Virus record (IMG/VR): IMGVR_UViG_3300028892_001098
Coordinates: 1-39,513 of that record
DNA from: a virus
Length of the DNA stretch: 39,513 nucleotides
Strand: one strand, 5' to 3'
Each line of letters starts with the position of its first letter. Positions within the stretch are counted from its first letter, which is position 1. The translations under genes and the position numbers were made by a program. Positions 3,564 through 39,513 of this stretch are shown here, in pieces. Below the pieces are notes generated by a model. It ran no database searches. It saw only the letters and a program-made list of their open reading frames with translations, and was not told where the DNA came from.

Positions 3564-3862
3564 TGAAAGAAGAGTTTGAAGAGGCTGATGGATGCGGTGT
3601 ATGGTTGCTACTCAACCTTCGACGTGCGGGCTTGATTACAGGCGCAGACGAAGCCGCCATCACCGAAGACGGCAAAGAAATTGACCTTACCCCAGCCGTG
3701 CTTTTCCTTCGCGACCGACCCGACTTCCCGTGCAGCGAGTATCACCCGCCGCATCCAGAAGGACGCGACGCAACCAATCCCCCACAACGTAAGCGGGGAA
3801 TGTATGAAGGAGAGGTGCGCCTGTTCCGCGCACCCGATGAATGGTGGGATGAAAATGAGTGA
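3563..3862 (+). CDS. Hypothetical protein
   Basis: 99 residues. I chose the ATG at 3563 over the overlapping GTG at 3560 because it sits five bases after GGAGG, whereas the GTG is only two away. Acidic, with a helical N-terminal half and a Pro/His-rich centre (SEYHPPHPEGRD). No motif recognised. The last 8 bases overlap the next gene. Confidence 0.6.
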   Translation: MKEEFEEADGCGVWLLLNLRRAGLITGADEAAITEDGKEIDLTPAVLFLRDRPDFPCSEYHPPHPEGRDATNPPQRKRGMYEGEVRLFRAPDEWWDENE

Positions 3863-4136
3863 TTGGGAATATCCGATAGTGATTGACTACGAGCGATACA
3901 CCCACTTTCGCGAAGAGGAACCCGGCGGTAGTATCCGCCTGTTCAACGTCGTGAAGTGTGTGAAATGTGGACGAGCATGTGAGGCTCGCGATTATGTGGT
4001 GACATACGGCAAAGGACCGTATGACCTGCAAGAAGAACACGACCTCATGTGGTTCAAGGGCGACGACCTACCCCTCGCGAGGGGGGCTGAAGGTATGCCC
4101 ACCTGCGGAACCTGCGGGGGTGAAGAAGAAGAGTGA
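3855..4136 (+). CDS. Hypothetical zinc-ribbon protein
   Basis: 93 residues from the ATG at 3855. The reading frame is open much further upstream, but this start fits the overlap pattern of the operon. CVKCGRAC lies near residue 35 and CGTCGGEEEE forms the C-terminus, so a four-cysteine ribbon is likely. The tail is encoded by a longer variant of the junction repeat. It is the last gene before the candidate RNA at 4142. Confidence 0.6.
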   Translation: MSDWEYPIVIDYERYTHFREEEPGGSIRLFNVVKCVKCGRACEARDYVVTYGKGPYDLQEEHDLMWFKGDDLPLARGAEGMPTCGTCGGEEEE

Positions 4137-4141
4137 CACAC

Positions 4142-4260
4142 GGGCCGTGGGGTTTTTTACTTCATTCTTGCCCGCGGGAGCCGCTTTCATCAGCGCATTT
4201 TCGTTTGCGATGCCTCCTATCATCGCTTAGGTTCCCGCCCGCCTCACCTCGGCACGGCCC
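4142..4260 (+). ncRNA. Candidate structured RNA with nested stems
   Basis: Non-coding gap between two genes with three nested pairings that I can draw by hand. GGGCCGTG (4142-4149) pairs perfectly with CACGGCCC (4253-4260). Bases 4174-4182 pair with 4230-4238 (9 bp, one G-U). GCGATG (4207-4212) pairs with CATCGC (4221-4226) around an 8-base loop CCTCCTAT. The loop exposes CCTCC, complementary to a Shine-Dalgarno. The outer stem is followed by ACCA, giving a tRNA-acceptor-like end, but no D or T arm fits. Strand, exact ends and expression are not proven. Confidence 0.4.
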
Positions 4261-4288
4261 ACCACCCTTCTTCTGACGCGAGCGAGGG

Positions 4289-5134
4289 TTGATTACACCA
4301 CGCGACCTCTTAGCAGACATGGAACCCCTGCGCTTCTGTGGTGAGTGGTTTCAGACGCGACCGCGGGATATCCACGTCAAGGAGTTTGTGGGGTGGCGTC
4401 GCGTTCGCGGCGAGCGCAGGTTCCAGCCTTACGCAATCATCGAAGTTGCTGGTTGTGAGATACTCTTCGATGGCTACGATTCTGTGTGGTCGCTGATTGA
4501 TGCCCTCTTTCGCGAGCCTCTGCCCCGAAGGGCTGTCAATGCGGCCATGAAAGGTGACATGCTGGGAGAGAAGGATTGGGAGTGGCAACCCTTCGTTCTC
4601 GATTTACAGGCTTTCGCGAGGGAGTCAGACGTTCATACGCTCACTATACAGGTGAGTGGTGGGCGACCCGGCCCCCACCCCTTCTCACCATCGGCTACAT
4701 ACGATGGCTTCCTTGCTCACGATATACTGGCCTTCGCGAGCAGCACGAAGGTAGACTCTATGGAATACCTTGCGTGCAGCCCCCTATTCCTGTATGCAAC
4801 GACTTTACCGTTTCGCGATGAGAAGGGGTTGCGCTTCGTGCCCACCCTCGTATTCGGCTCGCGGCCCAACTTCGTGTTCGTGCAGAGCGTGGGCAAGGGG
4901 CACGCGACCTTCGGCGTGCGCTCGCGTGGGAGAGAGGGTGATGTGCGCATGGAGCGGTGGTTCACGAGCAACGACCACGACCTGATAGATGAGAAAATCG
5001 TGAGCCTGCTCGACAAACTGAATCGCGACCAAAGAAACTTCCCCGTCTTTCCCGTTGAAACCAATGCACTATACAGCATTGAACGCGATGAAATAGAGTG
5101 CATCCGCAGCGCGAAGGGGTATCTGTCAGAGTAA
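4289..5134 (+). CDS. Hypothetical protein
   Basis: 281 residues if started at the TTG at 4289; the first ATG is at 4319. Neither has a well-spaced Shine-Dalgarno, since GAGGG directly abuts the TTG, so the start is uncertain. Mixed alpha/beta, no membrane segment, slightly basic, with many aromatic residues. No conserved motif recognised. It follows the candidate RNA and is followed by the longest non-coding stretch of the plus-strand region, so it closes the first gene block. Confidence 0.6.
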   Translation: MITPRDLLADMEPLRFCGEWFQTRPRDIHVKEFVGWRRVRGERRFQPYAIIEVAGCEILFDGYDSVWSLIDALFREPLPRRAVNAAMKGDMLGEKDWEWQPFVLDLQAFARESDVHTLTIQVSGGRPGPHPFSPSATYDGFLAHDILAFASSTKVDSMEYLACSPLFLYATTLPFRDEKGLRFVPTLVFGSRPNFVFVQSVGKGHATFGVRSRGREGDVRMERWFTSNDHDLIDEKIVSLLDKLNRDQRNFPVFPVETNALYSIERDEIECIRSAKGYLSE

Positions 5135-5402
5135 TTCTTTTCGTGAGTGAGAAGAAAAACTGAAAGAAAAACAGGCTCTCAGTCTAACGGTTATCGCGAA
5201 TTGTTTTATTTCTCTTAAGGCATGATAGGGTAGTATGTATCTAGGGGCTGTATTCTGTATGAATACCTATTGGGTTTTGACAGAATAGGAGAAAAGTGTG
5301 CAACTGCTCCACGATAATTCCTTCAGTATTCCTTCCTCGTAGTGAAAAGAATTGCTTGAGCGAGCGGGGGGTTTAAGTGGACACGCCCGCTCTCAATTCT
5401 GT
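5135..5402 (+). promoter_or_regulatory. AT-rich non-coding region with repeats; possible control region or origin
   Basis: 268 bases with no convincing gene, clearly more AT-rich than its surroundings. It holds two copies of AGAAAAAC near 5152-5172, an 8-bp inverted repeat TATTCTGT (5251-5258) / ACAGAATA (5280-5287), a hairpin GTATTC-TGTAT-GAATAC, and the block TGGGTTTTGACAG at 5271-5283. The same block recurs at 5404-5416 at the start of the next gene. A related GGGTTTTAACACAGAATA lies at 14286-14303. Repeats, low melting stability and position between gene blocks suit a promoter/operator or replication origin; which one is not shown. Confidence 0.4.
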
Positions 5403-5792
5403 ATGGGTTTTGACAGCAGGCAATTGCAGGCGGCGGTATGGCACTGGATGGTGGATGATGTGGGGTGCGCTACGACACCCGCTATCATGCGCTTCCTTAG
5501 AGAGAAGAAAAGCACATCGGGCACGCGAGCGCGATGGAGATTGGGTGCGCTCTCGGCGTATCAGATTTCACAGGCTCTCTCGCGCTCGCGACTGTTTCGC
5601 AAAGCCGGTCGAGAATACGCCGTGTGTGCGACCAGCAATTCCCGCACGCGATACACTGTATGGGAACCACGCTGCCTCGATGAAATCATCGAGCCGTATG
5701 TGCAGCCCGGACATACACCCATGCGTAGGCTTGAACGCCAGCCGAAGTTTGTGCGGGATGCTGTGCGCATCGCGAGGGGGGAGATGGGATGA
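5403..5792 (+). CDS. Putative winged-helix DNA-binding protein
   Basis: 129 residues from the ATG at 5403; a TTG at 5352 would lengthen it. Residues about 8-75 read as a winged helix: a first helix, then SAYQISQALSRSRLFRKAG as the recognition segment, and a beta wing (REYAVCATSNSRTRYTVWE). It lies directly after the AT-rich control region and is the first gene of the second block. One of about seven small winged-helix candidates in the window; a regulator is inferred. The GGGTTTTGACAG motif overlaps its first codons. Confidence 0.5.
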   Translation: MGFDSRQLQAAVWHWMVDDVGCATTPAIMRFLREKKSTSGTRARWRLGALSAYQISQALSRSRLFRKAGREYAVCATSNSRTRYTVWEPRCLDEIIEPYVQPGHTPMRRLERQPKFVRDAVRIARGEMG

Positions 5793-6637
5793 CTCTTGAA
5801 GCAATCAGTCCAGAAACGGATATCATGTGGGTCGGTGAACGGCCGAAGGGTATCAAGAAAGTGGTGGTGTTCGGGAAGGGGGATATCTCACCCACACCCT
5901 TCATCGTTGGGCGTGCGCTCATAGGTGCGAAGGTGAAACCCTGCGGCACTGTGCTATCGAAGTTGCATCGCGAAGAACACCTCAACCACACGGATTCGTT
6001 CTTCATGGCGGGCTGGCCTCTATGGGTGCGGGATGACACGATATTCTGCCACCTCGCGACGTGGCACGCAGCACCAATGAACCCTCAAGAGCAGAACAAC
6101 GCGTGGTTGTTCGCATATCCCCCCGTGCGCGACCTTTGCGGGTTGTTTCGCGACATGGGTGTAGAGGTGCTTCACTTCGTCACGACAGCGCACCTGAACA
6201 TGGCATACCCTGATGACTTCGATGAGGTTCCCAGCGAAGGCTTCTTCGTGGAGCATGTCACATCTCTCGACGTTAAACCCCATCCCGACTTCGTATCCGG
6301 GGAACACTCGCTGGTGTTCTCGCTACCCTCGTGGCTGTTCGCGTGGTTGTTCGCGTGCATGGGTGGTGAATCGCGCATCGTGGGTTGTGGTGGCGGCATG
6401 GATACGCTGGTGGATTGGGAAGCAATCATCCGGTTTCGTGACTACTTCGACGGAGAAGGAATCGTCATGCAAGAGCAGCACGCTCGCTCGCTGCACGATG
6501 ACTTCAAAGCAGTTGAGAAAGAAGCCCTCGCTACCGGGACACAAATCGCGGTGGAGATGATGGCTCAAATTGATTCGACCAATGGACGCAGCGGGAACAG
6601 AGATAGTGGTGGGGATAAGACGCCGATGTGGGGATGA
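5789..6637 (+). CDS. Hypothetical protein (possible PAC2-like fold)
   Basis: 282 residues from the ATG at 5789 (ATGA overlap, GGGGGGA upstream). The N-terminal two-thirds alternates strands and helices (GIKKVVVFGKGDISPTPFIV, FFMAGWPLW, VEVLHFVTTAH). The order faintly recalls the PAC2/proteasome-assembly-chaperone family, but I see no diagnostic residue and do not assert it. The C-terminal 40 residues are polar and probably disordered (STNGRSGNRDSGGD). It lies between two winged-helix genes upstream of the helicase. Confidence 0.5.
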   Translation: MTLEAISPETDIMWVGERPKGIKKVVVFGKGDISPTPFIVGRALIGAKVKPCGTVLSKLHREEHLNHTDSFFMAGWPLWVRDDTIFCHLATWHAAPMNPQEQNNAWLFAYPPVRDLCGLFRDMGVEVLHFVTTAHLNMAYPDDFDEVPSEGFFVEHVTSLDVKPHPDFVSGEHSLVFSLPSWLFAWLFACMGGESRIVGCGGGMDTLVDWEAIIRFRDYFDGEGIVMQEQHARSLHDDFKAVEKEALATGTQIAVEMMAQIDSTNGRSGNRDSGGDKTPMWG

Positions 6638-13355: not shown

Positions 13356-14261
13356 ATGCGTAGCATATGGTCCGAGAAACATAGGCCGCAGACGCTCGAT
13401 GAGTTGGTCGGCCAACCTGATTCATTCATCGCGGAAATGCGGGCAATTCTTGAGGGTGATGCGCCCATGCAGCACTTCCTGTTCTGCTCACCGGAACCCG
13501 GAACGGGTAAGACCACTATGGCCCGCATCATAGCCGATACTCTCGGCTGGCAGTTGCATCAATTCAACGCGAGCAGTAAACGGCAACGGGGAATCGAGTT
13601 TGTCGAAGACGATGTGGCCCCCCTCGCGAGAAGTGGGGCATGGCAAACCATATTCCTTCTCGATGAGGCTGACCGTATCACGCCGCAGGCTCAAGACGCA
13701 CTGAAGGGGGTCATCGAAGACGCCACCGGGTTCTTCATCCTGACAGCCAACGACCTGACTCGCGTTTCTCGCTGGCTACAATCGCGCTGTCAAGTGAGGC
13801 ACTTCCGCCCCATCCCCGACGACCTCGCGCTTGAGCAACTCGCTGTCATCGCCGCTCGTGAAGGAGCAGAGGTGGATGGAAACGACCTCTTCCGCATAGT
13901 CGCGAGGCACAACGGGGATTTGCGCAACGCGATTGGTGCGCTGCAAACGCTGGCGCATCTGCCCGTGGGTGAACGCGAGGCATTCACTCGCGCTCTGCAA
14001 GTGGATGAGGTAAACTCGGAGCGTGTTCTCTCGCTCGCCATGAAGGAGTGCGCCTTCGATGATGCGCTCGCTGAAATGCAGGGGCGACCTCGTGACGCAA
14101 TCCGTAGTGTGTTCCGCTACGCGGTCGCGAATCCAGCCCGCCCTGAAGCGAAAATGCGAGTCATCGAAGCGGCTGTCATAGCCGAGCGCGACCTCATTCA
14201 AGGGGTTGATGAGGGCATCGCCCTTCACAACTTCGTGAGGCTCCTTTGTCAGTGGAGATGA
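13356..14261 (+). CDS. Clamp loader small subunit (RFC-like AAA+ ATPase)
   Basis: 301 residues from the ATG at 13356 (MRSIWSEKHRP, the typical W-x-EKYRP-like RFC N-terminus). Walker A PEPGTGKTT at about 45-53, Walker B FLLDEAD at about 98-104, and the SRC-type LQSRCQ at about 140-145. A helical collar domain follows. It loads the sliding clamp onto primed DNA with ATP. Only one RFC gene is visible, so either it forms a homo-oligomer, a host large subunit is used, or the partner is an unrecognised gene nearby. Confidence 0.85.
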   Translation: MRSIWSEKHRPQTLDELVGQPDSFIAEMRAILEGDAPMQHFLFCSPEPGTGKTTMARIIADTLGWQLHQFNASSKRQRGIEFVEDDVAPLARSGAWQTIFLLDEADRITPQAQDALKGVIEDATGFFILTANDLTRVSRWLQSRCQVRHFRPIPDDLALEQLAVIAAREGAEVDGNDLFRIVARHNGDLRNAIGALQTLAHLPVGEREAFTRALQVDEVNSERVLSLAMKECAFDDALAEMQGRPRDAIRSVFRYAVANPARPEAKMRVIEAAVIAERDLIQGVDEGIALHNFVRLLCQWR

Positions 14262-38354: not shown

Positions 38355-38558
38355 TCACATGGCTTCCCATGTGATTACTGCCACATAGTTATTACCTGCT
38401 GATTTCTTGAATATGTTAATCTCAACTATTTTATCACCGGCTGAGAAAGTAGCCCCTTTCAATAGGGTTTGTATCGCTGCTCCAATAGTAGCGTGCGTCC
38501 CTGTGACGGTGCTAACCGTCAGTTTATCCTTGTCAAAAATTACATGTGTTCCAGCCAT
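38355..38558 (-). CDS. Small tail-module protein (67 aa)
   Basis: 67 residues from the ATG at 38558, after a good Shine-Dalgarno (TAGGAGG). Beta-rich with one helix (HATIGAAIQTLLKGATF, then VEINIFKKSAGNNYVAVITW). No family recognised. Between tail tube and chaperone genes; could be a second tube or connector component, or a decoration protein. Confidence 0.55.
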   Translation of the reverse strand: MAGTHVIFDKDKLTVSTVTGTHATIGAAIQTLLKGATFSAGDKIVEINIFKKSAGNNYVAVITWEAM

Positions 38559-38562
38559 CTAA

Positions 38563-38580
38563 ACGCCTCCTATCAGGCGT
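38563..38580 (-). promoter_or_regulatory. Hairpin enclosing a Shine-Dalgarno
   Basis: Minus strand ACGCCT-GATAGG-AGGCGT: a 6-bp stem that includes part of the SD of the 67-residue gene and the stop codon of the tube gene. It could tie translation of the small gene to ribosomes finishing the tube gene. Inference from sequence only. Confidence 0.3.
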
Positions 38581-39513
38581 CCATGTCGGTTGCTCCGCCG
38601 CCCTTGAGTTTGATTGATTCCGAGGAAAAGGTGACTACTGACATAGCCGTCAAGGTTGAATCATAAAGAGCCGTGAAAGGAACAGTCATTGTCTGCGAAT
38701 CGCGACCACTGATACTGGTTTCCGGCACGCCGTAGTGGACTTTGGCGAAGTCGAATCGAAGGTAGTTGAGAGCGTCCACCTCAAACAGAATGGAGATTGC
38801 GGGATTAGAGGCATCTCCATCGTGAAGTAGCCCCGCAAGCAATTCCGTATAGTGCGGCTCATCAACTGCTACATCACCGGAGAGAACGGCTTTATGGAAA
38901 GTGATTGAGCCGGTGATTTCACGAAGGGTTATCGGTGGTGCGCGAGCGCAGGTATTGGAGCCTAGAGTATATGAGTTATCGAGGTCGCGGCCGGTAGTGA
39001 TTTCAAAGTCAATGCTCTGAACCAGAGATGAATAGGCTGCGTTGGTCGCGAGGTCTTCAAAATTGACATACGCACCTGCGAAGTGTGCTGCATCTCCCGC
39101 ATAGTCGTAAGAGGGAGTGACGAGAGAGGCGAGGGTGGTGTTCGCTCCCTTACCTGTCAGGTTCGCTGTCATCATGGCGTATTCACCGATGGATGCACTG
39201 ATGGCGACGCTTTCAACGACTTGTCCCGCAAACTCATGGGCGTTATCATCTCGGCCAATCCTGACCGTGTATGAATCAAGGTCTACTGAAACCACTTCAG
39301 TAAGAGTATCTTCTACTCCGGGTGTGGCACCTTGAGTATGTGTGCCGTAAAGACCATGTAATAGCCTCATTACGAAGAAGTCAGGCTGAAGGGGCAGGGT
39401 GAAACTACCTGTGGCGTAGTGCTTCGTGTCTATTGCCTTCTCCGCTCCGTAGCGTGTGATATCCGCACGCGTGAGAACATCGAAGTTTTCCGAGTATGAT
39501 TCATCATTGACTT
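38573..39513 (-). CDS. Tail tube (major tail) protein, 5' end outside window
   Basis: The frame runs open to the right edge, so the start lies beyond the window; 312 residues are visible. KAIDTKHYATGSFTLPLQPD and LLHGLYGTHTQGATPGVEDT near the visible start, then VESVAISASIGEYAMMTANL, NLTGKGA and RAPPITLREITGSITF, form the repeating beta layout of siphovirus tail tube proteins, in particular the ligand-like G-x-(F/L)-x-L-x-(P/L) and GLxG pattern. Followed by the small gene, chaperones and tape measure, the normal tail order. Likely polymerises around the tape measure to form the tube. Confidence 0.7.
   Translation of the reverse strand, partial: VNDESYSENFDVLTRADITRYGAEKAIDTKHYATGSFTLPLQPDFFVMRLLHGLYGTHTQGATPGVEDTLTEVVSVDLDSYTVRIGRDDNAHEFAGQVVESVAISASIGEYAMMTANLTGKGANTTLASLVTPSYDYAGDAAHFAGAYVNFEDLATNAAYSSLVQSIDFEITTGRDLDNSYTLGSNTCARAPPITLREITGSITFHKAVLSGDVAVDEPHYTELLAGLLHDGDASNPAISILFEVDALNYLRFDFAKVHYGVPETSISGRDSQTMTVPFTALYDSTLTAMSVVTFSSESIKLKGGGATDMDA

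Follow-up and report, generated by a model that had tools for sequence, protein, structure and literature searches.

The DNA analysed here, referred to as the window throughout, is a viral fragment of 39.5 kb from IMG/VR. Among its gene products are PolB, an RFC-like clamp loader, an ERCC4-domain nuclease and tail proteins; as far as can be judged from this gene content, the window fits an archaeal tailed virus. The closest relatives of its polymerase were found in haloarchaeal tailed viruses (23–27% identity). Known phages showed no DNA similarity to the window and no protein match for either p4319, the gene discussed below, or the AAA gene; the AAA family was also without a match in GTDB genomes, and therefore no host is assigned. 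The stretch under study lies between a gene for a small CxxC protein and p4319 (Table 1), and its noncoding nature, assumed in the original prediction, was supported. The next gene had been placed at 4289; homology with the related locus L002 moves the start of p4319 from TTG 4289 to ATG 4319, so that the intergenic gap comprises positions 4137–4318. The p4319 gene was present in 35 related loci and its product had no match in Pfam or PHROG.

Table 1. Features of the intergenic element and its surroundings (window positions unless another locus is named).
Feature	Position	Strand	Remarks
Upstream gene, small CxxC protein	3855–4136	+	Homologue in L002 at 4532–4828
Whole RNA element, basal stem P1 and multibranch loop	4142–4260	+	MFE z −4.2; syntenic structural counterpart in L003
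P1 5' arm GGGCCGTG	4142–4149	+	8 bp with P1 3' arm
Hairpin GGGU/GCCC with U-rich loop (TTTTTACTTCATTCTT)	4150–4173	+	MFE and centroid structure
P3 5' arm GCGGGAGCC	4174–4182	+	9 bp including one G-U
Apical hairpin GCGATG-CCTCCTAT-CATCGC	4207–4226	+	From folding; 6-bp stem 4207–4212/4221–4226, loop CCTCCTAT at 4213–4220
Exposed anti-Shine-Dalgarno CCUCC	4213–4217	+	Unpaired probability 1.0; first-ranked loop 5-mer of the GC-rich stem-loops in related gaps
P3 3' arm GGTTCCCGC	4230–4238	+	Pairs with P3 5' arm
P1 3' arm CACGGCCC	4253–4260	+	Equivalent stem in L003: GGTCGCG/CGCGACC
ACCACC directly 3' of P1	4261–4266	+	ACCA at 4261–4264; in many relatives P1 is also followed by ACC(U)
Downstream gene p4319	4319–5134	+	Start from L002 homology; N-terminal domain weakly OB-fold-like
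AT-rich inverted-repeat gap	5135–5351		L003 6311–6487; L012 6852–7040; L045 6795–6880; L070 6452–6544

The gap does hold a structured RNA, a stem-loop whose anti-Shine-Dalgarno (anti-SD) loop is exposed. The three predicted stems of 8, 9 and 6 bp are all present, and folding against shuffled controls bore out the proposed structure: the region 4130–4290 reached a minimum free energy of −59.3 kcal/mol against −48.9 ± 3.7 for the shuffles (z −2.82; one shuffle in 200 did as well), the element alone a z of −4.2, and CCUCC was unpaired with a probability of 1.0. The window element thus displays both the basal stem around an unpaired anti-SD that characterizes SD-sequestering leaders and the unpaired C-rich seed of anti-SD small RNAs of the RNAIII/CyaR type. 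With tRNAs and tRNA-like RNAs it shares the ACC(A) after the stem; in contrast to these, it has neither a D arm nor a T arm, and since ARAGORN recognized no tRNA or tmRNA gene in the window (0 genes), a tRNA or tmRNA was ruled out, in agreement with the original prediction. The likening of ACCA to an acceptor end was not supported; ACC recurs after the stem in many relatives, and in some of these it is the 3' strand of the pseudoknot helix. Likewise, no Rfam 15 family matched the window at or above the gathering threshold or any of eight relatives, and the best match at permissive thresholds (sR28 on the other strand, 11.8 of 39 bits) was below threshold; membership of an Rfam family was thus ruled out even under permissive conditions.

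Related loci (more than 150, several of them overlapping on the same contig) were gathered by scans with the downstream AAA-type gene. About 30 copies of the element were found, and each of the 31 folded had a z of approximately −2 to −5.4. The gap between the CxxC gene and p4319 of L003, L004, L007, L020 and L021 contains a stem-loop with a long basal stem; the sequences are unrelated, the basal stem covaries, and CCUCC is kept and unpaired in all six syntenic copies (window included). In L003, the stem CGGTCGCG/CGCGACC has wholly replaced that of the window with pairing kept, and paired changes that preserve the helices separate L004 from L007 and L207 from L208; the covariation proposed at the outset as a check was accordingly found. 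Distant relatives kept the stem and the exposed CCUCC loop, with nearly everything else changed. As the primary sequence has diverged too far, common descent of all copies is unproven, and some of their common features could be convergent.

The association of CCTCC with stem-loops was examined by an unbiased scan of 651 non-redundant gaps of related viral loci. A strong GC-rich stem-loop occurred in 23 of the 651 gaps and CCTCC anywhere in only 29; CCTCC ranked first among the loop 5-mers of the GC-rich stem-loops (8 seen versus 1.5 expected), and its presence in four independent lineages had a chance probability of 1.6e-6 (background 23/645 gaps). Among the 3767 ACCTA sites of the loci, 10 followed a strong GC-rich stem, seven of which carried CCTCC in the loop, compared with 0–1 for control flanks. 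Whole-sequence enclosure revealed no excess of CCTCC over permuted motifs such as CCCCT (86 versus 58–100); in consequence, the association holds only within intergenic gaps and for the ACC-flanked class. Because stems were scored with G-U pairs allowed and A-C pairs penalized, the observed G-U excess (29:2) was partly built in; the argument for the strand drawn from it carries little weight and was dropped.

CCUCC is the sequence of the 16S rRNA 3' tail. In 1120 ATG genes of the related loci, GGAGG was found at positions −18 to −4 in 17% (0.8% at the control position) and GAGG in 39% (7%). SD use is thus clear across the related loci, although GGAGG-type sites, which the original prediction took to be in use in this genome, are rare among the window's own selected genes (3/42). 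In a subclade comprising L207, L208, L222, L216, L213, L211, L210 and others, the distance from the element to the AAA gene is about 2.2 kb, and the gene immediately after the element is a small one whose product has about 96 aa; the stem follows a promoter-like block (TTAARTAGTGGCG or TATATAGTGGCG) and TACAACA. There, a helix of up to 17 bp that shows covariation joins the anti-SD loop and adjacent nucleotides to the downstream SD, which lies outside the stem, e.g. loop CCUCCUUUUGUGUUUGGG with flank CCUAAACACAGGAGGA in L207 and loop CUCCGUU-UA-GUUGCUUGGU with flank ACUGAGCAACAACGGAG in L213; pairing with the downstream SD was found in L207, L208, L222, L213, L211 and L210. Changes in this loop-flank helix (P2) left the pairing intact (GUGUUUGGG/CCUAAACAC, UUGCUUGGU/ACUGAGCAA, GGUUGCUUG/CAAGCAACC). 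Compared with shuffled flanks, the pairing of loop and 3' flank was significant in L003 (11 bp; p<0.002), L207/L208/L222 (p<=0.002), L213/L211/L210 (p 0.002–0.024), L021 (8 bp; p 0.016) and L221 (p 0.046). The layout of the subclade is an H-type pseudoknot masking the ribosome-binding site, and such masking may also take place inside cells. Because the partner of the loop in several relatives is the next gene's ribosome-binding site, the element is probably a translation switch.

SD-sequestering pseudoknot leaders are known, e.g. the preQ1-type riboswitches, and the L207–L222 subclade resembles them in that the loop of the 5' stem and the downstream SD form an H-type pseudoknot. The element differs from such leaders by its longer, GC-rich basal stem, by the lack of a recognizable ligand core and of an Rfam match, by its occurrence in a putative archaeal virus, and by a window copy that has no SD to hide. 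Indeed, neither the window nor its closest relatives yielded a cis partner for CCUCC: no SD precedes ATG 4319 or the p4319 start of these relatives, the pairing of the window loop with its 3' flank was no better than chance (p 0.25), and neither pairing with a downstream SD nor a leader pseudoknot was seen in the window. The two ideas originally put forward, a regulatory small RNA and a riboswitch-like leader, are partly right: the leader idea holds for the subclade, and it may or may not apply to p4319 of the window. The reading preferred here, to which a probability of roughly 0.55 is given, takes the element for a fast-evolving, structured RNA with which a group of uncultivated archaeal tailed viruses regulates translation initiation through SD pairing. 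In its favour are the fold, the covarying stem, the exposed and kept CCUCC, the pseudoknot of the subclade and the TATA-like boxes upstream of P1 in half of the copies; against it stand the chance-level pairing in the window and the lack there of an SD and of a TATA-like box, the AT-rich box that suggests a leaderless p4319 transcript starting past the element, and the absence of the element in front of most p4319 homologues. The GC-rich basal stem would hold the loop open and present CCUCC, whose base-pairing with SD sequences would affect initiation; the pairing may block ribosome loading until a ligand, a protein or an alternative pairing frees the SD. The window copy, which has no cis SD partner, would influence translation in a broadly similar manner, either as an operator on p4319 or in trans on other SDs. 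It is accordingly taken to be an RNA regulator at the level of translation, either a cis operator or a trans-acting anti-SD RNA.

A trans-acting RNA is possible, if somewhat unlikely: the element would be a viral small RNA with a short transcript of its own, whose CCUCC loop binds SDs of viral or host mRNAs and blocks or remodels translation, sparing leaderless viral mRNAs like that of p4319. TATA-like boxes roughly 28 nt ahead of P1 in L004, L007, L034, L044 (TTTATATG) and L020/L021 would let the RNA start at the stem. Of 22 representative copies, 11 had such a box 25–38 nt upstream of P1, whereas the figure was 3.2 for random places (p<0.0005) and 4.4 for the starts of gaps (p 0.001), the range for its start (−38 to −25) having been set after inspection of the data and agreeing with archaeal promoter geometry, in which TATA boxes usually occupy this position; none was present upstream of P1 in the window. 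An AT-rich box approximately 24–30 nt before the p4319 ATG in relatives with this gene downstream suggests a leaderless p4319 transcript that starts after the element, and p4319 would thus possess its own promoter. The loops of L157 (CACCTCCTTAG) and L193 (TTCACCTCCTT) are close to the 16S tail. The window loop GCCTCCTATCA is an 11-nt perfect complement of the ribosome-binding site in front of the minus-strand gene at 38558, which codes for 67 aa (p 0.04); this match is absent from the relatives, whose gene after the tail tube gene is preceded by GAGGTGA, and a conserved trans target at this place was therefore rejected. Against a trans-acting RNA also stand the lack of a visible terminator after the element and the cis pairing of the L207–L222 loop with its own gene. 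Anti-SD or C-rich loops acting in trans have been described for S. aureus RNAIII, the UCCC RNAs and E. coli CyaR (PMC2837412); these share with the element an unpaired C-rich/anti-SD loop on a stem, but have known bacterial targets, in contrast to the cis pairing in relatives and the single candidate trans target found here. The 67-aa gene follows the tail tube gene, and its ribosome-binding site (38548–38590, minus strand) could itself form a small hairpin, ACGCC..GGCGT.

RNAs that mask an SD or carry an anti-SD are of a known kind; none was found described in this virus group, nor did the literature on it yield any description of structured regulatory RNAs. It is a rather doubtful, more far-reaching proposal that the copies form an undescribed, fast-evolving RNA family whose sole kept sequence mimics the 16S 3' tail, acting in trans in some genomes (tilting host or viral translation in favour of leaderless viral mRNAs) and as a cis SD-masking pseudoknot in others. 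Families this diverged escape alignment-based discovery; anti-SD loops can be found by structure and motif search instead of by sequence. The preferred reading, SD pairing at translation initiation, would, if right, make SD-based control of gene expression in archaeal viruses concretely testable by mutation.

An autogenous operator appears unlikely; in this model the product of p4319 would be an ssDNA-binding protein that attaches to the structured leader and thereby shuts down translation of its own mRNA, and CCUCC would play a secondary part. The precedent is T4 gene 32, whose leader pseudoknot of diverging sequence serves autogenous translational repression (PMC535899); the T4/RB69 operator and the element have in common a pseudoknot in a viral mRNA leader (for the element a possible one, with the 11-bp and 8-bp loop-flank helices of L003 and L021 as candidates), sequence divergence between related viruses and a possible ssDNA-binding protein gene downstream, whereas the anti-SD loop sets the element apart. 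The p4319 gene lies among replication genes and directly downstream of the element in six genomes. In a structural alignment, its predicted N-terminal domain matched best with OB-fold ssDNA-binding proteins (RPA, CST, SSB), with a Z of 6.6 over 118 residues for RPA, although a Z below 8 may reflect a common arrangement only; Foldseek returned no match with E<0.001 for the model, and p4319 is perhaps an OB-fold protein. Most relatives with a p4319 homologue, however, have no element in front of it, and other copies precede genes unrelated to p4319.

Still less probable is that the element serves the upstream small-gene operon as a structured 3' UTR or as a transcription terminator and that CCUCC plays no part. 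The stem does begin 6 nt (window) or 7 nt (L003) after the stop codon of the CxxC gene and U-runs occur in several loops, but these lie inside the loop instead of past the stem, and the enrichment and unpaired state of CCTCC, the downstream pseudoknot pairing and the upstream TATA-like boxes would not be expected. That the element functions as DNA, in the form of a replication origin or a binding-site hairpin, and resembles an RNA by chance is highly improbable: the element adjoins replication genes and palindromic stems also occur in DNA elements, but pairing aimed at SDs is meaningful in RNA only, and the AT-rich gap right after p4319 is the better candidate for a replication origin. In many relatives this gap contains long inverted repeats of AAAGAAT/ATTCTTT, the window copy being weaker.

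Further stretches of note were observed in some of the related loci. A second conserved noncoding stretch of structured appearance, GGCGTGGCTAACGAAAGC...GGTGTTAGCCCAAAACCTA.ACCATGTTCGGTGTAAATC, is located at 5665–5820 of L006 (also in L005) and had no Rfam match; L056 and L069 show partial similarity to it about 40–100 nt past their elements. In L038, a GC hairpin of 14 perfectly paired bp with seven T behind it (about 6017–6056) upstream of the p4319 homologue resembles an intrinsic terminator, here in a presumed archaeal virus. At 13807–13861 of L173, a stem-loop with an ACCTAT flank and the promoter-like TTTATAAG contains CCCCCC in place of CCTCC, and is either a family member that lost its anti-SD or a chance look-alike.
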